This document shows positions 1,507-20,272 of a DNA stretch of 43,696 nt, piece by piece. The notes beneath the pieces were generated by a model. It did no database searches. It saw nothing but the letters and a program-made list of their open reading frames with translations, and was not told where the DNA came from. Positions within the stretch are counted from its first letter, which is position 1. Each line of letters opens with the position of its first letter. The DNA lies in contig JAKPXO010000306.1 of NCBI GenBank assembly GCA_029567505.1, positions 1-43,696 of the forward strand. Reading direction: 5' to 3'. This stretch comes from Acidobacteriota bacterium. GTDB lineage: Bacteria; Acidobacteriota; Thermoanaerobaculia; UBA5066. The position numbers and the translations under genes are program-made.

Positions 1507-2103
1507 CTCCCCGCCAGCGGCAGGTCCTTCTCGGAACCAGACACTCTCCGTCGGCGGTCGTTGGGCGGTCCTTCCTCCCGCGAGACGGGCTCTCGCGCGC
1601 AGGCCCTCATGACAACGTCGCGCTGCCCCGCACGGTTTCCGCGCACCCCACCAACGGGTACTGCAGCGACGCTCCCGTCAACCGGCGGGGACCGGTTCGT
1701 CCGGCAGCCCGCCGAAGCGAGTCGCAGGCGCCCGTAGGGCACTGGCGACGAGACGCGTCGCCTTCGCATCTCTCCCTCCCGTGGCGCGTACGGCGCCCCG
1801 AGCCCGCGACCGGCCGGATAACCAAGGCCCTTCATGCGACACGTTCACGATCCTGGCGGTTCTCCTCGAGGACCCCCGTGTCTACGCGACTCACCTCGCG
1901 CCGGATCCCCTCTTCCGGTCACTCCTCCCGGACCTCCGCCTGCCGCTACGCCCATCGACGCGTACCGCGTGGTGCCGTCGCAGACGTCCAGACCTCCGGG
2001 CCAGGCGCTTTCGACACGAGCATTCCCGCACCTCGTTTCAGGCCCGCGCGATCCGGCTCGACCGGGCCGTCGCGAGCTTCTGCAGTCCTCACCAGGAGAT
2101 CCC
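1507..2103. other. Gap of about 600 bases without a convincing gene
   Basis: Only short overlapping frames in several directions are open here, rich in Arg, Pro and Ser, and none has a ribosome site or a recognisable motif. The stretch upstream of 2104 stays open in the frame of the metalloprotease as far as 1834, but the translation is low-complexity and the better start is the ATG at 2104. No hairpin or repeat of note was seen. Confidence 0.5.
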
Positions 2104-3201
2104 ATGGCAAAGCCCCCAGCACCCGCCGACGGCGGGAGATCATCCGGACATCAAACGACGAAGCCCTATTGTCGGAACCTCCCGCGGAGCGCTCCCGCCC
2201 TCCCGCCAGCCGTCACCGCGGACCCTGCGCGCGCGGCGGCAATAGTCCTCGGACGGTCGAAGTGGGTCAACGGAACCGTCCTGCACTACGCCTTCTTCTC
2301 AGGAAGCTCTCGCTACTCCGTGCCACATGGTCAAGCCGACGCAGTGCGAGACGCATTCGCGAAGTGGAAAGCCATCGGCATCGGCCTGGAATTCAAGGAA
2401 GTTCCGCTGCTCGCGCAGGCCGAGGTTCGGGTGGGATACTCCCTCGTCGACGGAACGTCCGCGTCCGGGGTCGGTCGCGACATCCTCAACATCTCGCTCA
2501 ACGAGCCGACGACCGTCTACGGATGGGACCTAACCTCGCCATACGGTCGCGGCACCGCACTTCACGAGCTCGGCCACGTCCTCGGAATGGAGCACGAACA
2601 CCAGAACCCCTATGCCGGCATCAAGTGGCATGAGCAGGCGGTCTACGATGCTCTTGCGAAACCACCAAATCGCTGGGACAGGTCCACGACGTATCACAAC
2701 ATCCTGGAGAAGCTTTCCCCGCAGCAGGTCCAGGGCTCGCGATGGGATCCCGACTCGATCATGGAGTACGAGTTCGAGCCCGGCCTCATCGACGAGCCTC
2801 AGGAATACGACGTGAACGGGCTCACGCCGCCCGGCACACTGTCCGCTGACGACATGGCGTGGGTACGCAAATGGTATCCGCCGGTAGACCACACCCTGCC
2901 GCTTCTCGCTCCATTCGAGTCCCGCGCCGTTGACCTGGCGGCGGGCGAACAGGTGGACTTCGCGGTTGCTCCCGCCGTCTCCCAGAAGTACACAATCGAG
3001 ACGAAAGGTGCGACGGACACGCTCCTCGTTCTCTTCGAGGACGTGAACGGCGAGCCTGTGTATCTCTCCGGCGACGACGACAGCGGCGAAGAGCGGAACG
3101 CGATGATCACCTACAGGCTCCTCGCCGGACGGCGGTACATCGTGCGCGTCCGCCTCTACTATCCGGGTCGATCCGGCAAGACCCATCTGATGATCCTCTA
3201 G
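2104..3201 (+). CDS. Astacin/matrixin-like zinc metalloprotease with C-terminal PPC-like domain
   Basis: A 365-residue predicted zinc endopeptidase. The active-site motif HELGHVLGMEHEH starts at residue 154, giving zinc ligands His154, His158 and His164 with catalytic Glu155. The Glu after the third His matches the longer astacin form HExxHxxGxxHE. A Met-turn (SIMEY, Met220) follows at the expected distance. Residues 54-100 look like the first strand and helix of the metzincin fold. Residues 268-365 resemble a bacterial pre-peptidase C-terminal beta domain with an acidic loop (DDDSGEE). The ATG at 2104 was chosen because AGGAG lies five bases upstream. Unusually, the N-terminus is Pro/Ala-rich with no signal peptide. 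Codon use is less GC-extreme than in most of the window. It is followed after 272 bases by a cysteine protease on the same strand. Confidence 0.85.
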   Translation: MAKPPAPADGGRSSGHQTTKPYCRNLPRSAPALPPAVTADPARAAAIVLGRSKWVNGTVLHYAFFSGSSRYSVPHGQADAVRDAFAKWKAIGIGLEFKEVPLLAQAEVRVGYSLVDGTSASGVGRDILNISLNEPTTVYGWDLTSPYGRGTALHELGHVLGMEHEHQNPYAGIKWHEQAVYDALAKPPNRWDRSTTYHNILEKLSPQQVQGSRWDPDSIMEYEFEPGLIDEPQEYDVNGLTPPGTLSADDMAWVRKWYPPVDHTLPLLAPFESRAVDLAAGEQVDFAVAPAVSQKYTIETKGATDTLLVLFEDVNGEPVYLSGDDDSGEERNAMITYRLLAGRRYIVRVRLYYPGRSGKTHLMIL

Positions 3202-3473
3202 CTCGCCCCGTCACACCGACGTAGACTCCTCGAGGGTTCCCGTCCCCATCGTTGAGCCCTCGCTGTGAGCCCGTTCGCCGGCCACGTGAGGCACCGACTC
3301 TCCCTGTCCGGAGATGCGGCGACCGTCCCTTCCTCTTCACCTGCTCCGCCATCCCTCGCTGCCCCCGGGTTCGGCGCGGCCGACGGCGGTGATGCCATCG
3401 CCCCATCGTCCCGCGCCGCGTCGGAGATAACGCCAATCCAACCTGACGCGACACTCATACAGGGAGGCGTCCC

Positions 3474-4868
3474 ATGAAAGTCAAGGAACTCCGGAGCATC
3501 CTCAACGCTTCCAAAGCCCAGTGGGCCATACCGGCCGACATCGCCGACGACACCGAGCTCGAAGCCATCTCGAGACCGTTCGCCATGGGCGGCATGCCAC
3601 CTGCCCCTGGAGCACCCACGGCTCGATCACCGCGAATGCGCCGGCCCGCCGATGCGGCCGTCGCCCTCTGGCAGCCCGGCGGGAACCGTCTGACACGACC
3701 GTTCGTCACCGCGCTTCCCAGGACGTGGGACTGGCGCGATGTCCATGGACACACTTGGATCTCGCCTCCGAAGAACCAGGGTGGCTGCGGCTCATGCGTC
3801 GCCTTTGGCGTCTCCGCCGCGCTCGAGGCTCACCAGCGCATCGAGGCGAACGACGCTTCCCTACCCTTCGACACGTCCGAAGCCAATCTCTTCTTCGTCA
3901 ATGAGCGGCAGTGCAATCTGGGTGATCCCAGATACGGCTGGTCCATACCGCCCGCACTGGATTACCTCGTCGACCAGGGCGCCTGTCCGGAAGAGGACTA
4001 TCCCTACCGCGACGTCAATCAGAATGCCGAGCTGGTCCTGGGCACGCAGGGCACGTGGAAGATCAAGGGCTACGACTCCACGAGCAACGTCAGGCAGGCG
4101 AAGCGATGGCTGTGCGAGGACGGCCCCCTCGTCACGAGATTCACCGTGTATCAGGACTTCATGACGTACTGGAGCCTCGGTGCAAACGGCGTCTACACGC
4201 ATCACGCTGGAAGCACGCTTGGCGGACACGCCGTCGCAGTGATCGGCTACAGCGACGAGCAATCCTGCTGGATCTGCAAGAACAGCTGGGGCTCGACCCA
4301 CGGCAACGACGGCTGCTTCCGGATCGGATACGGCCAGTGCGGAATCGACGATCGAATGTACTTGATCCAGGATGTGTACGACGTCCTCACACGAGACGAG
4401 ATCGCATACAACCCGCGCACGCTGCGAATCGTCGACGAAGGCGCAAGAGGCTGGTTGCTGACCGACGGCGTGAGCCGAATGAAGATTCTCGACAGCAAGG
4501 AGGACGCTCGCAACGCTCTCTGCGTCGCTCGCAGATACACGCGACAGGGCTTCGTGGGGCGGGACAACCGCAGAGCGAATAGAATCGACTACATTACGGA
4601 ATACTGGGCCGGGAACAGCGGTCTCCCGCACGAGCCGCTGACGCGAGAGGATGCGATTCCATACGATCCCTCGAAGGTCGTCGCCGAGGACATCGATGCC
4701 GACGGTTGGCGGCTCAGAGAGGGAAGCCACTGGATGCTGCTGGCAGACGATCTCAACGATGCATTGGCCGTTCTTCAGATCGTCGAGCGCTACACGAAGA
4801 TGTGCTTCATCGGGAGGGGCAATCATCGCCCCGACAGGAAGTCCTACATCATGACCTATTGGGAGTGA
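3474..4868 (+). CDS. Papain-family (C1A) cysteine protease with two C-terminal repeats
   Basis: A 464-residue papain-like peptidase. The oxyanion-hole Gln102 and nucleophile Cys108 lie in QGGCGSCVAF; the usual Trp after the Cys is Val. His252 lies in GGHAVAVIGY and Asn270 in KNSWGS, completing the triad. Residues 1-80 could be a pro-region; there is no signal peptide. After the catalytic domain come two related units of about 65 residues (about 325-392 and 400-464), each with a 'GW.L..G...ml' start, an Ala-rich helix, a 'F[VI]GR.N.R..R..YI..YW' ending, and no assigned function. The start is supported by AGGGAGG at 3461-3467. It probably works with the metalloprotease just upstream, with which it shares strand and base composition, but no substrate can be inferred. 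Confidence 0.85.
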   Translation: MKVKELRSILNASKAQWAIPADIADDTELEAISRPFAMGGMPPAPGAPTARSPRMRRPADAAVALWQPGGNRLTRPFVTALPRTWDWRDVHGHTWISPPKNQGGCGSCVAFGVSAALEAHQRIEANDASLPFDTSEANLFFVNERQCNLGDPRYGWSIPPALDYLVDQGACPEEDYPYRDVNQNAELVLGTQGTWKIKGYDSTSNVRQAKRWLCEDGPLVTRFTVYQDFMTYWSLGANGVYTHHAGSTLGGHAVAVIGYSDEQSCWICKNSWGSTHGNDGCFRIGYGQCGIDDRMYLIQDVYDVLTRDEIAYNPRTLRIVDEGARGWLLTDGVSRMKILDSKEDARNALCVARRYTRQGFVGRDNRRANRIDYITEYWAGNSGLPHEPLTREDAIPYDPSKVVAEDIDADGWRLREGSHWMLLADDLNDALAVLQIVERYTKMCFIGRGNHRPDRKSYIMTYWE

Positions 4869-5070: not shown

Positions 5071-8436
<3,366 letters not shown>

Positions 8437-8452: not shown

Positions 8453-9802
8453 TCAGTCCGGAGCGGAGAGCATCCACTCGTAGGCCGGCTGGACCTCGAC
8501 CCCTCGCGGGACCTCCGCCGGTCTGCCGTCGCTCGTCAGGGTGAGGAGCCGCTTCTTCGCCTTCGGATGGATCCGGCCGGCCTCCACGAGCGCTCGCAGC
8601 TCCCGTTCCGCCGTCGCCGGATCGGTCGCGTCGGCGCAGACCTGGATCAGGTCGGCCTGGCCACCCGCACCGCGCGCGAGGAAGTCGACCTCGTGCCCCT
8701 CGGGCGTCTTCACATACGTCACGGCGAGCTGCCGCCGCTGAAGCTCCACGAGGACGGCCGTCTCGAGCGCATGCCCCGTGTTCGCGCGACCCGTCCGGTC
8801 GAAGAGGGCGATGAGCGCCGTGTCGACCGGGTAGCACTTCCGCGGGTTCACCATCCGCTGCCGCTCCGAGGCCGACTCCATCCAGACGGGCCTCACGAGG
8901 AAGCAGTCCTCGAGCCAGGCGAGGAGCTGATGGACGGTGTCCCGCGCGATGGCGACCCCCTGGCTCTTCAGCGCGGCGTGGAACTTCTCCACGCTGAAGA
9001 GCGCCCCCGCGTTGCCGAGGAGCTGCCTCACCATCCAGCGAAGCCCGACGACGTTCCCGACCCCGTGGCGCTCCATCACGTCGCGCAGCATCGCGACGTC
9101 GACGTAGTCGCTCAGCATCTTTTCCCGGGAAGCGGCGTCGAGCTTCTGCACCTCCGGGAAGCCGCCCGTCGAGAGCCAGTCGAGGAACGCCCGCTCGATG
9201 CGCCCGCGTTCGGCGCCGCCGAGGAAGCCGGGTCTCGCGGGAATCGGCCGCCCCTGAAAGAGGAGCGCCTCGGCGAAGCTGAACGGGTAGATCGGCACCT
9301 CCCAGGCGCGGCCCCTGAGCGCCGTCGCGATCTCGCGCGAAAGGAGCGCCGCCGAGGACCCCGTGACGAGGATGTCGTTTCGCCCTTCGTCGAGGAGCCG
9401 CCTCACGAACCGTTCCCACCCCTTCACGAGCTGGATCTCGTCGAAGGACCAGAGGACGCGCGCCCGTTCGCGCGCCTCCGGGAAGAGCCGGCCGTACTCC
9501 TCGAGGAGGAGGCCGAGCTGCGCCGCCGTCATCTCCGACAGGCGCTCGTCCTCGAAGTTCACGTACGGGACGTGCTCCCGCGCCGCCCCGGCCGCGAGCT
9601 GCTCGCGCCTCTCCTGGTGGACGAACGTCGTCTTCCCGGACCGGCGGACGCCGACGACGGAGCTGACCTTCCCCGGCAGGCTCGCGGCGCCGTGGAGCCT
9701 GCGCGGCGTCCCCTCCGGGATCGGCTCCGTCAGCGACTCCTTCAGCTTCGCGAGGAGGACGCTCTTGAGGTCCGAAGCGGAGAGCTCGTTCATGCCCGGC
9801 AT
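8453..9802 (-). CDS. AAA ATPase with C-terminal DUF4143 domain (copy 1)
   Basis: A protein of 449 residues from ATG 9802, or 446 from ATG 9793. GGAGAG sits almost against the first ATG but at a normal distance from the second, so 9793 is the likelier start. Walker A is GVRRSGKTT (about 51-59), Walker B is SFDEIQ and a sensor-like TGSSA follows, as in the AAA_14 family. The C-terminal third contains the DUF4143 nuclease-like core with GHEVDFLARG, the part usually compared to PD-(D/E)XK nucleases. Such proteins are common as solitary genes of unclear role. Here the gene sits 42 bases after the methyltransferase stop and 16 bases before the DUF499 start, so it is probably co-expressed with them. 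Confidence 0.85.
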   Translation of the reverse strand: MPGMNELSASDLKSVLLAKLKESLTEPIPEGTPRRLHGAASLPGKVSSVVGVRRSGKTTFVHQERREQLAAGAAREHVPYVNFEDERLSEMTAAQLGLLLEEYGRLFPEARERARVLWSFDEIQLVKGWERFVRRLLDEGRNDILVTGSSAALLSREIATALRGRAWEVPIYPFSFAEALLFQGRPIPARPGFLGGAERGRIERAFLDWLSTGGFPEVQKLDAASREKMLSDYVDVAMLRDVMERHGVGNVVGLRWMVRQLLGNAGALFSVEKFHAALKSQGVAIARDTVHQLLAWLEDCFLVRPVWMESASERQRMVNPRKCYPVDTALIALFDRTGRANTGHALETAVLVELQRRQLAVTYVKTPEGHEVDFLARGAGGQADLIQVCADATDPATAERELRALVEAGRIHPKAKKRLLTLTSDGRPAEVPRGVEVQPAYEWMLSAPD

Positions 9803-9844: not shown

Positions 9845-12742
9845 TCAGGAGGAGAAAAGGTCGGCCTGGCCGGCCTCCCTCGCTCCGCCCTCCCGCGCCA
9901 GCCGGACGATCTCGGGCCAGCTCTGGACGAGAGCGTTGTAGGAGAGGGCCTCGGGGGCCCGCTTCTTCCGCTCGCAGATCGTGTAAAGGCGGTACGCGAG
10001 CTCGCGCGCGACCTCGGCCTTCGCCCCGAGCTTCGCCGCGAGCGCCGCCGCCGCCGCCTCGCCCTCGGCCTCGAGGACGCGGATCAGGTGGTGGACCATC
10101 TCCCACTCGGTCAGCCGCGTGTCGCTCTCCGGGTCCCATTTCGGCGACAGCTCGGCCGGCTTCAGGAGCCGTACCTTGCCGCGGCTCGACTTCAGGATCC
10201 CCGCGTCGACGAGTCCCGCGACACTCGTGTTCTTCGCCTTCGAGAGCGTCTCGCCGACGCCGAACTCGCCTTCTCCGAAGCCGTGCTGCTCGAACCAGGC
10301 GAGCGCCCACCGGCTGTCGGCGTCGAAGTCGCCCTCCTGCTCCGCGAGCGCCTCGTCGAGGACCTGGTTGATGAGGGCGAGCGCCTCGCGGACGCTGACC
10401 GGCTTCCCCTCCGCGTCGAGGACCTTCGAATAGCGCGTGTAGACCGCCATCCCCGGCCCGATCGCCGCCTGCGCGAGGTCGACGGGTGCGATGTTCCCGC
10501 GCTGGAGGTGGGCGAGGGCGGCGGGGAGCTCGGCCTTGAGGGCGTTCACGAGCTCGCGACGGGTGGCGGTGGGCGCATCGGCGGGGCGGGGGCGGCAGAC
10601 GAGGACGATGGAGGAGGCGAGGGCGTTGGAGGCCACTTCGACGGAGCGCCCCTGCCGCTCGGTCCGCATGGGCCAAGTACCGCTCACGCCCAATCCGGCC
10701 CTAATGACCGCGTCGAGAAACGTCTCCCAGCCGGTGCTCGAAGTCCCGAGATCATCCGGGCTTTCCGCCTGTTTGAAGGCGTAGTAGATCGTGACGGGAA
10801 AGGCCGAGTGCGCCTGCGCAGAAAGACGGGACATGGCAGACGTCATGCCGTCAAGGAAGAAGGCCTCGGCCTGCTCCACCCCGCCATGGCGGTACGGGGC
10901 GGCCACCAGCTCTCCAATCTTTGGCACTGCAAGCGTCCTGAAGAGCTCCGGGAAGACCCTCTGCAGAGTCCTTCGAAGCCAGACATAGAAGAAATCCGAC
11001 AGCTCCGCATATCCAATGTTGTTGTAGTACGGAGGATCTGTGGACACGACCCTGCCGTCCGCGGCGACCTCCGTCGCGCAGTCCGCCTGAAAGGCCGTCC
11101 CCGGCTTCGTGCCCTCAGAGACCGAGAGGGCCGCTACGCTCTCGGCTGTCCACGCGGTCGACTCGGACAAAGACCTCGTGCAGTCTGCCAGCAGATCTAC
11201 TTCAGCAAAATCCCAAGTCATCGGAAGGGCTTGCCGGCTAAACGTGCTAAAGAGGGAGTCTCGCTGCGTCATCCATCGGCAGATCGTCGAACTCCCATCG
11301 ATCGACTTGCTGAGAACGAAAGAGAGGTAGCTCGCGACGGCTTCCGGATAGCCTATGGGCCCTCCCTCGCCTTCCCTCTGGTGTCCATTGCAGTACGGCG
11401 GCCCCGCCGTCACAGAATCCCGCTCGACGCGTTCCTTCGCGTCCTGCACAAGGTTGGAGAAGGTGGTCAGTGCCACAAGCTGGCGCGGCGTGAAGAGATC
11501 GCCCCATACCGAGAGACCGTATGGCACACACGTTCCACCGGTAAGCCTCGCGGGCACATCGCCCTCCGGTCTCCAGTCTGGCTTGGCCTTCCGCGCAATC
11601 GCCTCGTGCTCCGACGTCGGCGGGAGATACACCCTGCTCCGTTCCCCCTCCGCGACGATCGCCATCATCCGGGCACCCATCCGGCCGGCCTTCCCCTCCG
11701 CCTTGATGTAGTCGCCTTCGATCGCCGTCCCCGACATTAAGCACCGAAAGTTCGCCCCCCGCGCCAGCTTCGTCCCGTTCTTGGCCTCCTCCGCCTTCTT
11801 CGGCTTCCCCACCTTCACCGTGAACCGGTAGCCGCCATCCTCGATGACGGGCTCGACGTAGGCCTCCTTCCCCTCCTTCGTCGAGAGCATGAAGGTCGAG
11901 GCGAGCGGCACGTCCACCTTCCGGAAGGCCGGGTTCGGGCTTTTCACCGTCCGCGCCCAGAGCCAGGCGATGACGGTCAGCTTCTTGCCGACGTACGGCT
12001 TCAGATCGGGCCGCCCCTTCGCCATCTCCGCCGTCACCTCGACCTTCGGGTAGAGGTGGCCGATCCGCTTCTCGGCCTCGTCGCGCATCCACTTGCCGTA
12101 GTAGCGAACGTCCTCGGCGAGCCCCTGCGCCCCCTTCCACTCGCGGGCGATCAGCTCCCCGTTCGCGCGCGCCTCGGGGTTCACGGGCGGCCGCCCCGCG
12201 AACTTCGGCGGGATCTCGATCATCGCCTTGTTGATGAGGACGGCGACCGGGTTCAGGTCGCTCGCGTACGCCTCGAGGCCGAGCCGCTGCGCCTCGAGCG
12301 GGAGCGAGCCGCCCCCGGCGAACGGGTCGTGGAAAGCGGGCAGCTTGTGCCGGTCGAAGAGCTCCTTCGCCCGCGGGTGGTCCGCGTTGTCGGCGCAGGC
12401 CCGCCGCCAGCTCTGCCAGATCTCTGCCCGCGCCGCCTCGAGGACCTCCTCGTTCGTCGTGTTCTCCCACTTCACGAGCTCTTCGATGATCTTGAAGAGC
12501 CGCTGCCGCTCCTTCTCCTGCTTCTTCTCCGTCGGGAAGAGATCGGGACACGACGACGGGTCGTCGACCATCTGCGCGAAGATGACCGCCCGCGCCGCCG
12601 CGAGCGGCCGCCGCGCCCACCAAAGGTGAAGCGTCGACGGGTGCCCGTGCCGGATCGACTTCTCCCGCGCCGACGCCTCGTTGATCGCCTGCAGCGGCAG
12701 CGCCACCTCGATCAGCTTCTTCCGGCTGATTTCCCTGCTCAT
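9845..12742 (-). CDS. DUF1156 DNA methyltransferase (adenine/cytosine amino-methylase)
   Basis: A 965-residue DNA methyltransferase. The N-terminus (about 5-75, with '[18 protein letters not shown]') is the DUF1156 domain. The SAM-binding motif DPFAGGGS is at 139-146 and the catalytic DPPY at 569-572, the order and type expected of N6-adenine or N4-cytosine methylases. The long separation of the two motifs is normal for this family. In helicase-methylase-ATPase loci it is thought to mark self DNA. GGAGA precedes the ATG at 12742. Residues of about 367-687 (bases about 10680-11640) are encoded by clearly less GC-rich DNA than both flanks. No disruption of the frame was seen. The target sequence cannot be predicted. 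Confidence 0.88.
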
Positions 12743-12805: not shown

Positions 12806-13282
12806 TCAGTCGTCCGGGTTCGCCGGATCCCTGAGAGGAAGTCCCTCCGGCAAGACCATGTCCTCGGCGTAGCGGACGAGCGCTTCGGCCGCCCCTCGTG
12901 GCGATCGTGACGGGAGGAGCGCTTCGGCTCGCAAGACGTTTCGCACGATCTCGTCCTCCCGGCAGAGCGCCGGAAACAGCTCGTGGTAGACGAAGCGGTT
13001 CCACGCGTCGAGACGCGCCTTCCCCTCGTCGCCGAAGAGCTCCCCCTGCGCGTCATACCGTTCGCTTCGATACCGATCGCAGACGGCGTTCCAGAACGGG
13101 AGGAGAGGCCCCAGGTCGAGGCCGCCCTCACGGCGGGCGTGCTCGAGCACGGCGGCAGGCTCACCGCGAATCTGAAGCAGCCGAAGCGCGCCCAGGTACC
13201 GGCCAATGCAGCTGCGCACGAGACTGGACAGGGCCGGGCTCGTCCATTCCTGCTGCCTTCGAGCGAACTCCTCGCGTGTCAT
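12806..13282 (-). CDS. Unknown 158-residue protein in defence operon
   Basis: A 158-residue, mostly helical and charged protein with no signal peptide, membrane segment or recognisable catalytic motif. The start is supported by GGAGG five bases upstream of ATG 13282. It begins 13 bases after the stop of the TOPRIM-like gene and ends about 60 bases before the methyltransferase start, so it belongs to the same transcript. Its base composition matches the TOPRIM/AAA genes rather than the methyltransferase flanks, which suggests it travelled with that pair. Conserved-looking stretches are 'SSLVRSCIGRYLGAL' and 'RFVYHELFPALCRED'. An accessory or regulatory subunit is possible but not shown. Confidence 0.7.
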   Translation of the reverse strand: MTREEFARRQQEWTSPALSSLVRSCIGRYLGALRLLQIRGEPAAVLEHARREGGLDLGPLLPFWNAVCDRYRSERYDAQGELFGDEGKARLDAWNRFVYHELFPALCREDEIVRNVLRAEALLPSRSPRGAAEALVRYAEDMVLPEGLPLRDPANPDD

Positions 13283-13295
13283 CCCAGCCTCCGAG

Positions 13296-13901
13296 TCAGC
13301 ACGTCTCCGTCCGAGATACGAGCACGGTCCCTATTCGATCTCGGAAGCGGCGAAACGATCGATTCCCTGCGGCCTCGTCGAGGTCGAAGTGCTTAGTGAA
13401 GGCGAACTGATGCGTGAGAGGGTCGTACCCTCCGGCCATCCGGTCACCGAGCCAGCCCTTCGCGTCACGAATCGACTCGTGCTGCGGCGGGCGATCGAGG
13501 TCCGACGGCAGGCCGTGCCGGTCGCGCAGGGACCGGGCCGCCGCCAAGAACCAGCTCTCGTACTCGCGTTGGGCGAGAACGATGAGCCATTCGACGTCGG
13601 ATCGGACGGCCCTGACTCTTCGAAGGAGATCCGGGCCGAGCGTGGCCGGGCAGCCGTCGTCGCAGTCGAGGAAGACGAGGACGAGGCCGCCCGCCTGCGC
13701 CGCTTTCTCGGCTGCGAGAGTGGCGTGGCGCTTAAGGTAGGCCCCGTCGTGCAGAAAGGAACCGGCTTTCACGCGTATTGGGTGATTGACTCGCACTGAG
13801 CGCTCGATTCCAGCGGCGCTCGCGAGCCTGTAGAGGAGAGCTGGCACGGCTTCCTTCTCGCCGTGCCCCTCCACGATCGGAGCGATGTAGATCGGCTTCA
13901 T
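13296..13901 (-). CDS. DUF4276 family protein, TOPRIM-like
   Basis: A 201-residue protein of the DUF4276 type. The N-terminal IVEGHGEKEAVP supplies the conserved Glu of a TOPRIM fold, and VFLDCDD (about 76-82) supplies the acidic Asp pair. A further acidic stretch AQREYESWFLA lies in the middle. In OLD-family systems a TOPRIM nuclease is either fused to or encoded beside an ABC-type ATPase. Here the start codon overlaps the stop of such an ATPase by four bases (ATGA), so the two are translationally coupled and probably form a complex. Nuclease activity is inferred from the acidic residues only. Confidence 0.8.
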   Translation of the reverse strand: MKPIYIAPIVEGHGEKEAVPALLYRLASAAGIERSVRVNHPIRVKAGSFLHDGAYLKRHATLAAEKAAQAGGLVLVFLDCDDGCPATLGPDLLRRVRAVRSDVEWLIVLAQREYESWFLAAARSLRDRHGLPSDLDRPPQHESIRDAKGWLGDRMAGGYDPLTHQFAFTKHFDLDEAAGNRSFRRFRDRIGTVLVSRTETC

Positions 13902-15121
13902 CGTGATTGAAGCTCGAAGAGCTCGAGCTGACGCTCGTCGTCCACATCCTGGAGAGCTGTCTCGTCGGGCGCGAGCTGGTTCTGGCGAAGCAGCTCTCCG
14001 GCGGTGAACAGCTTCTCCCGAAGCACGTTACGGCCGGCCGCGTCGATAGGCCCTATGCGTGTAAGCCCGTCCCGGTTGTCGACGGCGCGGAGGGCGTCGA
14101 TCGGAATATCCGGGTTGTCGAGGAGGTCCGGGCTGTGGCTCGTCACGAGGATCTGGCAGGTTCGCGAAGCCTCGCGGAGGGCTCCCAGAAGAACGCCAGC
14201 CGCTGCCGGATGAAGCGCGACCTCCGGCTCCTCCACGCCCACGACCAGCGGAGGTATAGCCCCTTCGCGCCGCGACGCCGCCTGGAACGCGGCGAGCAGG
14301 ACTCCGAAAGCTCGGAGCGTCCCGTCGGACATAGAAGACGCGAGAAACCGCCAGGGGTGCTTCTGGCCCCGCACCGTCTGACGGAACTCGATCGTCTCCT
14401 GCGAAGCGAGCGTCTTCGGATCGGCAGACGAGAGCCCGGCTACGATGCGGGAGAGGTGCTCGTCCACCCGCTCGCGCACCGCCGGCGTCAGCCGCTGCAA
14501 GACGCTCGCCGCGTTGCTGCCATCCCGCCGGAGAAGGTCTCCCGGATCGGGCTTCTGCATGGCGGCAAGCTCACGGGGGATGAGGTTGTAGATGCGTATC
14601 CGCGAGAGTGCGTCGAAGACCGGTCGGAACTGCGGCGTCCCCGACGCCGCCACGAGGAACAGTCGATCCGGAATCGCCGCCGGCTGCGGGGAGAAGGACG
14701 CGGAAGTCACCTTTCCCCGGTCGACCCTGAAGTGATCTCCGCCCTCGAGCGCCGCACCTTCGGCGACCCGACATTCCTCCGTCTGGACTTCGTAGCCGCC
14801 CGCGGATCGGGCGGCGACGCGAAAGCTGTAGTGACCGACCCTCCCGTTCGGGAGCGAGAAATCGAGGCGTATCGCGAAGTGGTTCGGATGTCCCCCCGAC
14901 CGCCTCCGGACCTCCTTGATGGTCCCCCGGTCGCGCAACGCGTGGTCCAGGGAGGTCGACAGCGACTCGGAGACGAGCCGGAGGGCATCGAGAAAGTTGC
15001 TCTTTCCTGCTCCGTTCGGGCCCACGAGGAAGACGAGCGGTCCGAGGTCGACCCTGCACGCGGAGATGCTCTTGTAGTTCCGAAGGGTTACCCTGCGAAG
15101 TAGCGGACCGGTCAGGTTCAT
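13898..15121 (-). CDS. AAA/ABC-type ATPase (OLD/RecF-like) paired with TOPRIM-like protein
   Basis: A 407-residue ATPase of the AAA_21/RecF-SMC-like group. Walker A is GPNGAGKSN (about 34-42), the ABC signature-like SMSDGTLR lies in the second half, Walker B is VGVEEPEVALHP, and the H-switch is TSHSP. The N-terminal LRNYKSI is typical of this family. Close relatives with TOPRIM partners act in overcoming-lysogenization-defect and Gabija-like defence. GGAGGG precedes ATG 15121. Its stop overlaps the start of the DUF4276 gene. There is an 85-base gap from the DUF4143 gene upstream. DNA of this gene is less GC-rich than the helicase, consistent with a transferred cassette. Confidence 0.85.
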   Translation of the reverse strand: MNLTGPLLRRVTLRNYKSISACRVDLGPLVFLVGPNGAGKSNFLDALRLVSESLSTSLDHALRDRGTIKEVRRRSGGHPNHFAIRLDFSLPNGRVGHYSFRVAARSAGGYEVQTEECRVAEGAALEGGDHFRVDRGKVTSASFSPQPAAIPDRLFLVAASGTPQFRPVFDALSRIRIYNLIPRELAAMQKPDPGDLLRRDGSNAASVLQRLTPAVRERVDEHLSRIVAGLSSADPKTLASQETIEFRQTVRGQKHPWRFLASSMSDGTLRAFGVLLAAFQAASRREGAIPPLVVGVEEPEVALHPAAAGVLLGALREASRTCQILVTSHSPDLLDNPDIPIDALRAVDNRDGLTRIGPIDAAGRNVLREKLFTAGELLRQNQLAPDETALQDVDDERQLELFELQSR

Positions 15122-15206: not shown

Positions 15207-16451
15207 TCAGATCACCCTCCACCAGGGCGCCACGAGGACGCGTTTCGTGACCTTGTAGGTCTCCCTCCCGCCGTAGAGGAGGAGGCCCCCGTCGGCGAGG
15301 TCGGGGTACTCGTCGAGAAACGCCTCGAGCCCGGCGACGTCGGAGCGCGTGACGCGCGATGAAGCCTTCACCTCGATCGGGAGGAGGCGGCGCGGCGTCT
15401 CGACGACGAAGTCGACCTCCTGCCCGCTCGCCGTCCTCCAGTAGAGGACTTCCGGCCGGCCGACCGTGAGGTCGCGCCAGGCGAGGAGGTCGACGAGGAC
15501 GAGGTTCTCGAGGTGGGCGCCGCGGGGCTCGGTCTCCCCCGCGAGGTGAAGGGCGAGACCGGTGTCGCACCAGTAGAGCTTCGGCGCCTTGATGAGGCGC
15601 TTCGTCCGGTTGGCCGAGTAGGCCGGGAGGCGGACGGCCTGGTAGCTCACCTCCAGGATGTTGAGGAAGCGGTGGACCTGGGGCTGGGAAATCCCGATGT
15701 CCCTCCCCAGCTCGGCCTGGTTCAGGAGCGAGCCAATGCGCAGGCTCGCGGCGCCCATGAGACGCCGGAAGTCGGCCAGGCTCTCGACGGCGCGGAGCGT
15801 CTGGAGGTCGCGCTCGAGGTACGTCTGGACATAACCGCCGTACCAGCTCGACCGCAGGGACTCGTCGGCGATGCGGTGCGCCGGGGCCGGGAAGCCGCCG
15901 AGCCGAGCCGCCGAGCTCCAGGACTCCTCGGGCCCGGGGTGCGCGTCGAGGACCTGCGGCCAGCGCGAGAACGAGGCGGCGAGCAGCTCGCTCCAGGGGC
16001 CGGTCGCGCCCTCGCCGTGCCGTTCCCGTCGCGTGAACGGCCAAAGCGTCACGTAGACGGCGCGCCCCGCGAGCGACTCGCTGACTTTCTCCATGAGGAG
16101 GAGGTTCGCCGAGCCGGTCAGGACGAACATCCCGGGCGTCCGCTGGTCGTCGAGGTCGACGGCCCGCTTCACGGCGATGAGGAGATCCGGCGACCGCTGG
16201 ACCTCGCCGAGAACGGGGAGGGGCGCACGCTGCACGAACGCCTCGCCATCCGCGTCGGCGTGCGTCCTCAGGTCGATGTCGTCGAGCGAGAAATAGGGCC
16301 GGCGGGCGAGAGCCGGGAGCGTCTGGGCGAGGGTGCGCTTTCCGGCCTGTCGCGCCCCGAGGACGACGACGACCGGCATGATCTTCAGAGCCCGCTCGAT
16401 CGCGGCCCCCGCCGCGCGCGGGAGGACGGGCGGCTCGTGTCGCCTCACCAT
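15207..16451 (-). CDS. AAA ATPase with C-terminal DUF4143 domain (copy 2), altered Walker B
   Basis: A 414-residue AAA_14/DUF4143 protein, only distantly similar to copy 1. Walker A is GARQAGKRT. At the Walker B position the sequence is LPVLGEVQ; the usual Asp before the Glu is Gly here, checked at the codon level (GGC). The sensor motif LTGSAN is normal. The C-terminal half has SGQEVDFVVE and LPIEVKAS, the E/D...E-x-K pattern of the restriction-endonuclease-like DUF4143 domain. The frame is open to a TTG at 16475, but ATG 16451 is preferred. Just upstream lies a perfect palindrome, which suggests separate regulation. The loss of the Walker B Asp may weaken magnesium binding, so ATPase activity is uncertain. 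Confidence 0.83.
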   Translation of the reverse strand: MVRRHEPPVLPRAAGAAIERALKIMPVVVVLGARQAGKRTLAQTLPALARRPYFSLDDIDLRTHADADGEAFVQRAPLPVLGEVQRSPDLLIAVKRAVDLDDQRTPGMFVLTGSANLLLMEKVSESLAGRAVYVTLWPFTRRERHGEGATGPWSELLAASFSRWPQVLDAHPGPEESWSSAARLGGFPAPAHRIADESLRSSWYGGYVQTYLERDLQTLRAVESLADFRRLMGAASLRIGSLLNQAELGRDIGISQPQVHRFLNILEVSYQAVRLPAYSANRTKRLIKAPKLYWCDTGLALHLAGETEPRGAHLENLVLVDLLAWRDLTVGRPEVLYWRTASGQEVDFVVETPRRLLPIEVKASSRVTRSDVAGLEAFLDEYPDLADGGLLLYGGRETYKVTKRVLVAPWWRVI

Positions 16452-16455
16452 CGCA

Positions 16456-16470
16456 GTATGATAATCATAC
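16456..16470. promoter_or_regulatory. 15-base palindrome upstream of DUF4143 gene (operator or promoter)
   Basis: GTATGAT-A-ATCATAC has seven-base arms around one central base and lies four bases upstream of ATG 16451, in the 40-base space after the helicase. It is the most AT-rich spot for many kilobases. On the - strand, TATCAT (16463-16458) is a possible -10 box exactly six bases before the ATG, which would give a leaderless transcript. The same palindrome could be an operator for a dimeric repressor. Confidence 0.5.
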
Positions 16471-16491
16471 CGCAAAGGAATTCCACAAAGG

Positions 16492-19400
16492 TCACGCCGG
16501 CGCCTCCGCCCGCGCGATGAGATCGCCGAACGCGTAGTTCACGCTGCACGCGCCGAAGTCGGGCTCGCGCTGGAACGGCTTGCGCACGTAGTGGACGCCG
16601 TGCGCGCCGTCGGGGAGGAACTCGACGATGGCGAGGATGAAGTCGTCCGGCTTGTTGAGGCTGTAGAGGATTTCGTTCTTCGTGACGGTGATCGTGTCGG
16701 CGCCGGAGACGCGTCCCTTGACCTCGAGGAAGCGGAGGCGGCCGGTGCCGGGGACGCGGCTCTCGACGTCGTAGCCGAGCTTCTCGGTCTCGCGGTCGAT
16801 CGGGTCGAAGCCGAGGCCGCGCTCGACGGCCATGACGATCTCGCGGGCGCGGGCGGCGGAGGCCTGCGTGTCGGGCGAGGCAGCGAGGGCGGCGGCGGGC
16901 TTCCCCTGCATCGCGACGAGGAGGCCCATCGGGACGACGACGAGGCCGCCGAGGAGGACCGGCGGGAGGGCGGAAAGCTGGGCTTCGCGATCCAGCTCGG
17001 CGAGGCGCTTCTGGAGCCGGGACTGGAGGTCGTCGGCACGGCGGCGCGCCTCCTGGGAGTTGAGGCGGGCGCCGGGCCTGCCGGCGTGCTCGCGCGCCTT
17101 CAGCTCCTCGGCGCGGTGGTCCCACCAGGCGATCTCCTTCGTGAGGCGGTCCTTCACGGCGGCGCGCGTCTTCTCGACCCAGGAGAGCCTCCGGTCACGC
17201 ACCTCGCCGACGTGCCCCGGGACGACCGTGGCGATGGCGTGGCCGAGCGCGGTCTTCTCGAGGTCGCGGGTGATCCAGGCCATCTCGGGGCGGCCGAAGA
17301 GGGCGTCGATCGCCGGCTCGCCGGGCGCGAGCGGGCGATAGTCGAGGTAGGGGGCGTACTGAAGGTGCCGGGCGTCGCCGTCGGCGTCGAGCTCGACGTA
17401 GAGCATCCGCCGCGAGATCGTCCGCCGCTCGCCCGAAGGGAGGAGGCTCGCGTCCTGGATGGCGTGCTCGAGCGTGAAGAGGACGCGGGGGCGCGTGCCG
17501 GGATCTCGCTCGTCGACGAGGACGGTGCCGCGGCGGAGGAGGTCCCGATGCCGCTCGAGCGTCAGGTCGAGAGTCGCGTCGAGGAGCGGGTGGCCGGGGC
17601 AGAGGAAGGCGGCGAGAGGCTCGCCGGCGGGGGCGATGAGGTCCTTCTCGAAGGCGATCCGCTCGTAGCGCGCGAGGACGGGCTCGCCCATGCCGACCTG
17701 CCGGTCGCGGTTCTTCACCGGGGCCGGGACGTGGGTGACCTCGTACCGGCGCGGCTCCCGCTGGCGGACGGTGCCGCCGAGGCGCCGGAACGCCTCGAGG
17801 AAGAACGACTCGACGTAGTGGGGCTGGAGGCGCCGCGCGTCGGCCCGCTCCATCTCCTCGCGGACGCGGGCGACGCGGCTCGTGTCCATGGCGTCGTGGG
17901 CGAGCGCCCGCTCGTCGATCAGCTCTTCGAGGTGCGGCCGGTCGATCGTCTGCTCGATGGCCCGCGTGAGGCGCGCGCGCACCTCGGGCTGGTCGCCGTA
18001 GCGGATCGCCTCGATGAGGAGGTCGCGGAGCGGCTTGCCGTCGAACTGGAGCTTGCCGAGGACGTCGAAGACCTGGCCGCCGAGGGCGCTCCGGGCCTCC
18101 TCGAGCTTCTCGAGGAGGGTGCGGTAGACGTCGCCCTCGCGCGTCTCGTCGGCCACGAGGTTCCAGAGGTGGCAGACCTCGGTCTGGCCGATGCGGTGGA
18201 TCCGCCCGAACCGCTGCTCGAGGCGGTTGGGGTTCCAGGGGAGATCGTAGTTGACCATCAGGTGGGCGCGCTGGAGGTTGATCCCCTCCCCCGCCGCGTC
18301 GGTCGCGAGAAGGACCTGGACCATCGGGTCGTGGAGGAAGGTCTCCTGCGCCTTGCGCCTCTCGTCGCGTCCCATGCCGCCATGGATGACGACGACGGCC
18401 TGCGGCCGGCCGAGGAGCGTGCCGATCTGCCGCGCGAGGTAGTTGAGCGTGTCGCGGTGCTCGGTGAAGACGACGAGCTTCTGCCGGGGTGACGGGACGG
18501 GCTTCGGGAGCGGCCCGGAGCCGTAGGGCGCGCTTTCCTCCGCGACGCTCTCGCCGAACGCCGCGGGCGTGAAGATCTCGCCGAGGAGGCGCGAGAGCTC
18601 GCGCCACTTCGTGTCGCGGCCGCTCCGGCGGACCTCGGCCGCGAGGCCTTCGAGCCGCGCGAGAGTGGCGATCTCGGTCTTCAGCTCGACGATCGTCCGC
18701 GCCGCGGTCGCCTGGTCGAGGATCTCCTCCTCCGCCTCCTCGACCTCGTTCTCCGGAGCCTCCTCGAGGTCGTCGACGTCGTCCGGGTCGAGGTCGGGGC
18801 CGGCGGCGATCACCGCGGGGAGCGCGCCGCCGCGCTGCTGGAGCTCCAGCTCGCGGAGGCGCTTCTCGAGCCGCTCCTTCCGGCGGCGAAGCGACTGGTA
18901 GATCGCCTCGGGGGAAGAAGCGAGGCGCCGCTGGAGGATGGTCTGCGCGAAGCCGACCGTCCCGGCCCGCTTGTCGTTCGCGAGCTTCTCGGCCCGGTTG
19001 AACTCCTCGCGGACGTAGTCGGTCACGTCCTTGTAGAGGCGCGCCTCGGCGTCGGAGAGCTTGTAGGGCACCGTGTAGGCGATCCGCTCGGGGAAGAGCG
19101 GCCGGCCGTCGAACTTGAGGAGGCTCTCCTTGACCATCCGGCGCATCAGATCGGAGACCTCCACCTGGTGGACGCCGTCGCGGAACCGCCCCTCGAACCG
19201 GTCGCCGTCGAGGAGCGCGAGAAAGAGCTGGAAGTCCTCCTCTTTGCCGTTGTGCGGCGTCGCGGTCATCAGGAGGAAGTGGCGCGTGAGGCCGGAGAGG
19301 AGCTGCCCCAGCTTGTAGCGCTTCGTGAGCTTGACCTCGCCGCCGAAGAAGGTGGCCGATAGCTTGTGCGCCTCGTCGCAGACGACGAGGTCCCAGCCGG

Positions 19401-20067
19401 CGTCCGGCGCGGCGAGCCGGGCCTGGACGTCTTCGTTGCGGGAGAGCTTGTCGAGGCGGGCGATCGCGAGGTCGTTCTCGAGGAACCAGTTCCCGGTACG
19501 GGCCGCCTCGAGCTTGTCGTTCGTGAGGATCTCGAACGGGAGATGGAAGCGGCGATAGAGCTCGTCCTGCCACTGCTCGGCGAGGCTCCCGGGGCAGACG
19601 ATGAGGCAGCGCTTCAGGTCGCCGCGGGCGATCAACTCCTTGATGAAGAGCCCCGCCATGATCGTCTTCCCCGCCCCCGGGTCGTCGGCGAGGAGGAAGC
19701 GGAGCGGCTGGCGCGGGAGCATCTCCTCGTAGACGGCCGTGATCTGGTGCGGCAAGGGGTCGACGAGCGAGGTGTGGACGGCCAGGACGGGGTCGAAGAG
19801 GTGCGCGAGGCGGATGCGGTGCGCCTCGGCCACGAGGCGGTAGAGCGCTCCGTCGCCGTCGAAGCTCCAGGGGCGGCCGGCCTCGACGAGCGTCAGGCGC
19901 GGCTCGTCGTGCCGGTAGAGGACCTCCTCGGCGACGCCGCCGGTGGGCCCGCGGTAGATGAGGGTGAGGGCGTCCGAGCCGTGCCACTCGGTGCTGACGA
20001 CGGTGACGAGACCGTCGGGCAGGATGCCGCGAACGGCCCCCTGCGGCTGTAGGTCTTCGAGCTTCAT
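16492..20067 (-). CDS. SNF2/DEAH-type helicase with C-terminal DUF3883 domain
   Basis: A 1191-residue superfamily 2 helicase. Walker A ADDPGAGKT is at 127-135, the DEAH box at 231-234, and motif III is LMTATPH. The second RecA-like domain has FTEHRDT, VIHGG, TDAAGEGINLQ and the motif VI run QRFGRIHRIGQ. An acidic linker (EEAPENEVEEAEEEI) with helical surroundings lies between the lobes. The last 100 residues form a DUF3883 domain (GYDVES..., RFLEVKGR), a putative nuclease-like or sensor module. ATG 20067 is preferred over 20097 because AGGGG lies just upstream. It is the first gene of the long - strand defence unit and probably the DNA translocase of the system. Confidence 0.88.
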   Translation of the reverse strand: MKLEDLQPQGAVRGILPDGLVTVVSTEWHGSDALTLIYRGPTGGVAEEVLYRHDEPRLTLVEAGRPWSFDGDGALYRLVAEAHRIRLAHLFDPVLAVHTSLVDPLPHQITAVYEEMLPRQPLRFLLADDPGAGKTIMAGLFIKELIARGDLKRCLIVCPGSLAEQWQDELYRRFHLPFEILTNDKLEAARTGNWFLENDLAIARLDKLSRNEDVQARLAAPDAGWDLVVCDEAHKLSATFFGGEVKLTKRYKLGQLLSGLTRHFLLMTATPHNGKEEDFQLFLALLDGDRFEGRFRDGVHQVEVSDLMRRMVKESLLKFDGRPLFPERIAYTVPYKLSDAEARLYKDVTDYVREEFNRAEKLANDKRAGTVGFAQTILQRRLASSPEAIYQSLRRRKERLEKRLRELELQQRGGALPAVIAAGPDLDPDDVDDLEEAPENEVEEAEEEILDQATAARTIVELKTEIATLARLEGLAAEVRRSGRDTKWRELSRLLGEIFTPAAFGESVAEESAPYGSGPLPKPVPSPRQKLVVFTEHRDTLNYLARQIGTLLGRPQAVVVIHGGMGRDERRKAQETFLHDPMVQVLLATDAAGEGINLQRAHLMVNYDLPWNPNRLEQRFGRIHRIGQTEVCHLWNLVADETREGDVYRTLLEKLEEARSALGGQVFDVLGKLQFDGKPLRDLLIEAIRYGDQPEVRARLTRAIEQTIDRPHLEELIDERALAHDAMDTSRVARVREEMERADARRLQPHYVESFFLEAFRRLGGTVRQREPRRYEVTHVPAPVKNRDRQVGMGEPVLARYERIAFEKDLIAPAGEPLAAFLCPGHPLLDATLDLTLERHRDLLRRGTVLVDERDPGTRPRVLFTLEHAIQDASLLPSGERRTISRRMLYVELDADGDARHLQYAPYLDYRPLAPGEPAIDALFGRPEMAWITRDLEKTALGHAIATVVPGHVGEVRDRRLSWVEKTRAAVKDRLTKEIAWWDHRAEELKAREHAGRPGARLNSQEARRRADDLQSRLQKRLAELDREAQLSALPPVLLGGLVVVPMGLLVAMQGKPAAALAASPDTQASAARAREIVMAVERGLGFDPIDRETEKLGYDVESRVPGTGRLRFLEVKGRVSGADTITVTKNEILYSLNKPDDFILAIVEFLPDGAHGVHYVRKPFQREPDFGACSVNYAFGDLIARAEAPA

Positions 20068-20272
20068 GGGCACCCCTGAGACCGAATTCGGGCTCACGCC
20101 TCCGGAAACGCGACCGCCGCGGGCATTCTGCGCCGCGGGGAGCTCTCAGGGAACGTCCCGAGGCACGAGCGCACGACCGGTAGTGTGGTGCCTGCGCATG
20201 ACAGATGATGTCCGTGTGCTGGCGGAGCAGGTCCGCCTGCCCAACGACCGCCGTATCCGTGTCAGATTCGGG

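Follow-up and report, generated by a model that had tools for sequence, protein, structure and literature searches.

A HEC-01 ATPase-DUF4276 pair and an orphan gene at the HmaA-HmaB junction of an Acidobacteriota Hma operon

The window, by which we mean the whole 43,696-nucleotide stretch of DNA that was analysed, carries on its minus strand genes in the order HmaA, DUF4143 ATPase, AAA ATPase, DUF4276, a 158-residue open reading frame (ORF), HmaB, DUF4143 ATPase and HmaC (Table 1). PADLOC recovers all three Hma core proteins (HmaA, HmaB and HmaC) at full length in this single operon, and by its protein matches the larger system is Hma, alias Type-1 BREX-related. The first 4 nt of the DUF4276 gene are also the last 4 of the ATPase gene; 13 nt separate DUF4276 from the 158-residue ORF, and 63 nt separate that ORF from HmaB. 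A sequence-only reading of this DNA had singled out the AAA ATPase, DUF4276 and 158-residue ORFs as a cassette, and all three are present on the minus strand. It had further described the cassette as splitting the helicase from the methylase. The cassette does lie between HmaA and HmaB, but a DUF4143 ATPase gene in the same gap had been overlooked; the second DUF4143 ATPase gene, between the methylase and HmaC, was likewise absent from that account.

Table 1. Genes of the Hma operon in the window, in the order of the minus strand.
Feature	Coordinates	Strand	Matches
HmaA, SNF2/DEAD helicase with C-terminal NOV_C (PF13020)	16492-20097	minus	PADLOC PDLC00659 1688.8 bits; Pfam PF00176, PF00271, PF13020
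DUF4143/AAA_14 ATPase (PDC-S01), HmaA-HmaB slot	15207-16475	minus	PADLOC PDLC04790 E=3.8e-103; DUF4143 E=2.6e-36
HEC-01A AAA ATPase, 407 aa	13898-15121	minus	PADLOC PDLC04178 E=1.7e-153, residues 5-402; Pfam AAA_21 E=1.8e-25, AAA_15
HEC-01B DUF4276, 201 aa	13296-13901	minus	PADLOC PDLC04196 E=1.5e-62; Pfam DUF4276 above gathering cutoff
158-aa orphan ORF	12806-13282	minus	no family match
HmaB, DUF1156 adenine methylase	9845-12742	minus	PADLOC PDLC00660 1528.7 bits; DUF1156 E=4.5e-33
Second DUF4143/AAA_14 ATPase (PDC-S01), between HmaB and HmaC	8453-9802	minus	PADLOC PDLC04787 E=2.9e-93; DUF4143 E=5.1e-14
HmaC, HEPN_Swt1-DUF499 ATPase	5071-8436	minus	PADLOC PDLC00662 1171 bits; Pfam PF18731, PF04465

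The cassette is presumably co-transcribed with Hma; a search for a sigma-70 promoter or terminator within it returned none beyond chance. A perfect palindrome, TATGATAATCATA, lies at 16457-16469, past the HmaA stop and ahead of the probable ATG of the first DUF4143 gene; it extends to GTATGATTATCATAC on the minus strand. It occurs in a single copy across the genome and could possibly be an operator or promoter element of the DUF4143 insert. Beyond HmaC, at 1834-4868, are two plus-strand protease-like genes (matrixin-like, papain family) with a third-position GC content (GC3) of 0.73-0.78.

By profile matches, the AAA/DUF4276 pair is HEC-01A/B of PADLOC, where HEC denotes an "Hma-embedded candidate". 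In the ATPase the motifs are intact (Walker A GPNGAGKS, signature MSDGT, Walker B VVGVEEPE, H-loop TSHS; 10 relatives aligned), and the HEC-01A profile finds the OLD-family structure 6p74 as its top match in the PDB (E=3.5e-15), with PtuA, GajA and AriA also matched. On these profiles HEC-01A is an OLD-type ABC ATPase. For the DUF4276 protein, two structure comparisons of an AF2 model (pLDDT 94.5) both rank the C-terminal TOPRIM region of OLD, 6nk8, first (Foldseek E=3.6e-4; Z 8.9, rmsd 4.5 over 171 residues), the Z score being moderate, as other Rossmann-like folds reach 7-8. Residues E11, D79, E115 and K148 are invariant in 19/19 sequences; in the DxD-like motif the first D alone is invariant in these 19 and the second is variable. 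The modelled protein is most likely a TOPRIM-type nuclease with an OLD-like fold and a putative nuclease activity. Elsewhere, two tandem HEC-01A ATPases precede a single DUF4276 gene (L028:10100-12614), and C-terminal extensions occur on the DUF4276 proteins of L037 (2969-3970; 333 aa, extension of ~130 residues) and L113 (over 480 aa, with a longer extension).

The DUF4276 subtype is present in 14 of 396 phylum genomes (E<=1e-10), and a broad scan of genome contigs for HEC-01A gave at least two close relatives. Related pairs stand without Hma genes in the surrounding DNA examined at L022, L023 and L036 and on the Streptomyces plasmids L121 and L122. In L026 the pair runs into DISARM drmA/drmB (drmA is also found in L025), in L039 it is directly ahead of pglZ, and it occurs in two other Hma-type loci, L027 and L078, lying in L027 between HmaB-like and HmaC-like genes. 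Because it is found alone, by drmA, by pglZ and in other Hma-type operons, the HEC-01 pair is, on this distribution, a portable and self-contained two-gene system. A tree of 25 ATPases, to be read with caution at the long branches of L078 and L039, keeps the three Hma-embedded members (window, L027 and L078) apart by supported branches, which suggests that embedding occurred repeatedly.

The pair might instead be an integral part of Hma at this locus, acting as its nuclease and not as a separate system. The tight operon and the clamp-type C-terminal motifs found on both HEC-01A and HmaB (described below) would suit such an arrangement, but we consider it improbable, since the pair also exists without Hma and is missing from most Hma operons, and since HmaA and HmaC carry domains of their own, a C-terminal NOV_C and a HEPN domain respectively.

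The HmaA-HmaB slot itself was compared with an Hma operon from the same genus (genome G495, locus L138). The DNA of that operon is 86% identical to the window over HmaA as far as the stop codon (window 16491-20084), and 89% identical over a stretch that begins just within HmaB (11559-12723); homology breaks at the HmaA stop and the HmaB start. Between these points, the 3.7 kb of the window that hold DUF4143, AAA, DUF4276 and the 158-aa gene are replaced by a 183-aa protein and a HEC-09 NYN protein; a HEC-01-type ATPase different from that of the window follows HmaB. The 183-aa protein (L138:3938-4489), whose gene adjoins the HEC-09 gene, has no family match and so is a further case of an unmatched gene within an embedded cassette. 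In a second G495 fragment (L125), HmaB adjoins HmaC without the second DUF4143 gene. More widely, HmaB was found in 24/396 phylum genomes. HmaA directly abuts HmaB in L081, L082, L092 and L094, and the genes occupying the slot in other Hma operons are PDC-M38, a different HEC-01 subtype, DUF932, NUDIX or DUF4145; no relative of the 158-aa gene was detectable in the slots compared. The same-genus comparison is an independent example of defence modules swapped within one fixed Hma slot, and such swapping supports embedding as a guide to new defence genes. The earlier view of a small defence module lying within a larger one is thus supported: the module is catalogued as HEC-01, the pair occurs without Hma, the contents of the slot differ within the genus, and HmaA and HmaB are directly adjacent in several other operons.

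We next consider base composition, where the same reading had contrasted a GC of about 60% in the cassette with about 77% in the methylase. Whole-gene values (158-aa gene, 67.5%; DUF4276, 65.3%; AAA, 66.5%; HmaB, 67.3%) show this contrast to be a sampling artefact; single sampled lines mislead because 60-bp lines of HmaB span 45% to 82%. Overall GC is therefore not lower in the cassette, but third codon positions do set it apart. GC3 is 0.797 for the 158-aa gene, 0.781 for DUF4276 and 0.801 for AAA, lower than in the other operon genes (HmaB, 0.882; DUF4143 genes, 0.92-0.94; HmaC, 0.94; HmaA, 0.963; pooled Fisher p = 1e-27). The 158-aa gene matches AAA and DUF4276 in this respect (p = 1.0) and falls below HmaB (p = 0.005), and its codons are fitted better by a model trained on the pair than by models from HmaB or other operon genes. 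The matching GC3 and codon fit suggest that the three cassette genes share one origin, separate from that of the Hma core and of the neighbouring DUF4143 insert, although composition alone is no proof of foreign origin, since low expression could mimic such a signal. The protease-like genes beyond HmaC have a GC3 comparable to that of the cassette genes.

Within HmaB, the middle third (10583-11662) has a GC3 of 0.68-0.85 vs. 0.92-0.98 on both sides, and positions 11052-11558 do not align with the same-genus operon. This segment is probably an exchanged target recognition domain; the exchange, if true, would alter the methylation site.

The 158-residue ORF looks coding from its sequence. Its GC by codon position (0.75/0.48/0.79) is as in real neighbours, a Shine-Dalgarno-like GGAGG lies upstream of its ATG, and it occupies, in the direction of the operon, a gap that would otherwise hold no gene. 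Its product is probably all-helical; a single-sequence AF2 model (pLDDT 44) was unusable for the fold. The protein had no match in PADLOC, Pfam or NCBIfam, and its single PHROG match was at chance level. No relative was detected in its own genome (self only), in 396 phylum and 149 class genomes, in GTDB species contigs, or in viral contigs, plasmids, phages and the PDB. Weak matches (L002-L006, L101 and L102; E 5e-4 to 7e-3 per genome in 149-396 genomes) came near the chance rate and lay mostly inside longer frames, and the neighbourhood of the L003 match (L035) has no HEC-01 or Hma gene. The next ORF in L037 (183 aa) was also considered and is not a homologue. A spurious ORF or decayed remnant would account for the lack of a homologue in any search, and with a GC of 70% both strands of the window often yield ORFs of 100-200 aa by chance, but the codon-position pattern, the ribosome-binding-like site and the placement in the operon gap leave this explanation with only a slim chance of being right.

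The sequence-only reading had offered the 158-aa gene as a component of the ATPase/TOPRIM system. This was not borne out: the AAA-DUF4276-158-aa triplet was sought elsewhere and not found, because the protein has no detectable relative. Neither does the gene always accompany DUF1156 methylases and never the AAA/DUF4276 pair, since it is absent from 26 Hma-containing stretches. As it was found beside none of 19 related pairs (some with only ~0.9 kb beyond DUF4276), the evidence tying it to the pair is its composition and spacing, in one genome. We conclude that, across the relatives compared, the 158-aa gene is not a conserved component of HEC-01, that it was probably acquired together with the pair, and that a functional link to the pair is possible, with the balance lying against it.

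Two readings of a real gene were weighed. In one, a variant of HEC-01 requires the gene product as a third subunit, which might inhibit the TOPRIM nuclease or sense the trigger. The 13-nt spacing after DUF4276 with an SD-like site of its own, and a GC3 that equals that of the pair and lies below that of HmaB, are consistent with it, and the long DUF4276 extensions in L037 and L113 show that extra parts can attach to the pair. Against it are the 19 related pairs beside which the gene was not found and the lack of similarity between the 158-aa protein and the L037 extension, and we regard it as rather doubtful. The other, which comes near to an even chance, takes the gene as a passenger in the HmaA-HmaB slot or as a lone gene inserted there independently, with no functional relation to the pair. 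Elsewhere the slot accepts unrelated genes (DUF932, NUDIX, DUF4145, PDC-M38, and the 183-aa protein with HEC-09), the gap to HmaB is 63 nt, and other HEC-01 pairs have no relative of the gene beside them; yet its closeness to the pair and shared GC3 argue the other way, as does the different GC3 (0.92) of the DUF4143 gene that shares the slot. The orphan is one candidate new defence gene from this locus.

The C-terminal tail of HEC-01A in the window is ERQLELFELQSR, with QLELF, and HmaB of the window ends in AGQADLFSS (9845-9862). Relatives of HEC-01A end, after a variable linker, in QLELF, QIRLF, QIALF, QLRLF, QLNLF, QLSLF, QPDLF or QQELF, and HmaB proteins in QADLF, QAELF, QETLF, QRSLF, QSELF, QGTLF and similar; the majority of HmaB C-termini in the window, L045-L068, L125 and L138 finish in this clamp-type motif, QxxLF. 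One regular expression, picked after the tails were seen, matched 10/23 HEC-01A tails (0.66 expected from shuffles) and 14/26 HmaB tails (0.49 expected), counts that are not independent events because the sequences share ancestry. Controls gave 0/22 for HmaA, 1/20 for HmaC and 0/19 for DUF4276. QxxLF is the general clamp-binding consensus (PMC12309361; PMC13254535), and the tails of HEC-01A and HmaB are candidate sliding-clamp-binding motifs; an account of BREX (PMC12839542) makes no mention of clamps. The 158-aa protein has an internal QGELF at residues 79-83 (3.8% by shuffle), which is weak evidence. As a speculation that we hold to be unlikely but worth stating, HEC-01A of this clade and HmaB might both use these tails to bind the sliding clamp of the replication machinery. 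Embedded modules and Hma would then have in common a platform tethered to the fork, and the modules would do their sensing or acting where DNA is being replicated, with the 158-aa protein perhaps a third, clamp-linked component. If real, the tails would tell where in the cell both systems act, and they are cheaply testable.

With good confidence, we propose that a HEC-01 module and one extra small gene have been inserted at the HmaA-HmaB junction of an Hma operon, where they most likely form a backup effector layer. The proposal builds on the gene identities, the intact ATPase motifs, the TOPRIM-like fold with its invariant acidic residues, the module-like distribution, slot swapping within the genus and the GC3 common to all three genes. 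HEC-01A would sense an infection event, perhaps a disabled host restriction system or disturbed replication, and would then allow the DUF4276 TOPRIM nuclease to cleave nucleic acid and halt the infection, much like AriA/AriB in PARIS. By this analogy with PARIS, whose ATPase responds to a phage product and switches on the TOPRIM nuclease, the module would most likely have nuclease activity, a trigger, a substrate and an abortive outcome of that kind. The 158-aa protein would most likely have arrived with the pair, and might then be its regulator, sensor or inhibitor, or a passenger. In BREX and BREX-related loci, OLD-ABC modules linked to TOPRIM have been described as backup effectors, with PARIS as precedent (PMC12839542), and HECs are embedded candidates found by "guilt-by-embedding", several with antiviral activity (PMC12988326). 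Nesting of the HEC-01 pair in Hma is already published (PMC12988326, which cites Payne et al. 2024). The locus is a further case of this nesting, with a third gene that has no match; what is new here and open to test is this orphan gene and the clamp tails.

Finally, the locus can be set beside known systems. Like HEC-01 as catalogued, both proteins match the HEC-01A/B models nearly full length and are flanked by HmaA and HmaB/HmaC, but here there is an extra 158-aa gene without any model, and DUF4143 ATPases are embedded too. The Hma (Type-1 BREX-related) core is likewise complete, with HmaA, HmaB and HmaC full-length, but is interrupted by two DUF4143 genes and the HEC-01 cassette. PARIS also encodes an OLD-type ATPase and a TOPRIM nuclease as two genes, and AriA models match the window ATPase; the score is 91.6 bits, however, vs. 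509 bits for HEC-01A, and the nuclease is DUF4276/HEC-01B, with no AriB match. AbiL pairs an AAA ATPase with a small partner, and its AbiLi model matches the window ATPase (E=2.5e-17), whereas the DUF4276 protein has no AbiLii model match at E<=0.1. OLD and Gabija GajA combine an ABC ATPase with TOPRIM, and the OLD TOPRIM region is the best fold match of the window DUF4276 protein; in the window, by contrast, ATPase and TOPRIM are separate proteins, and the cassette has no GajB helicase.
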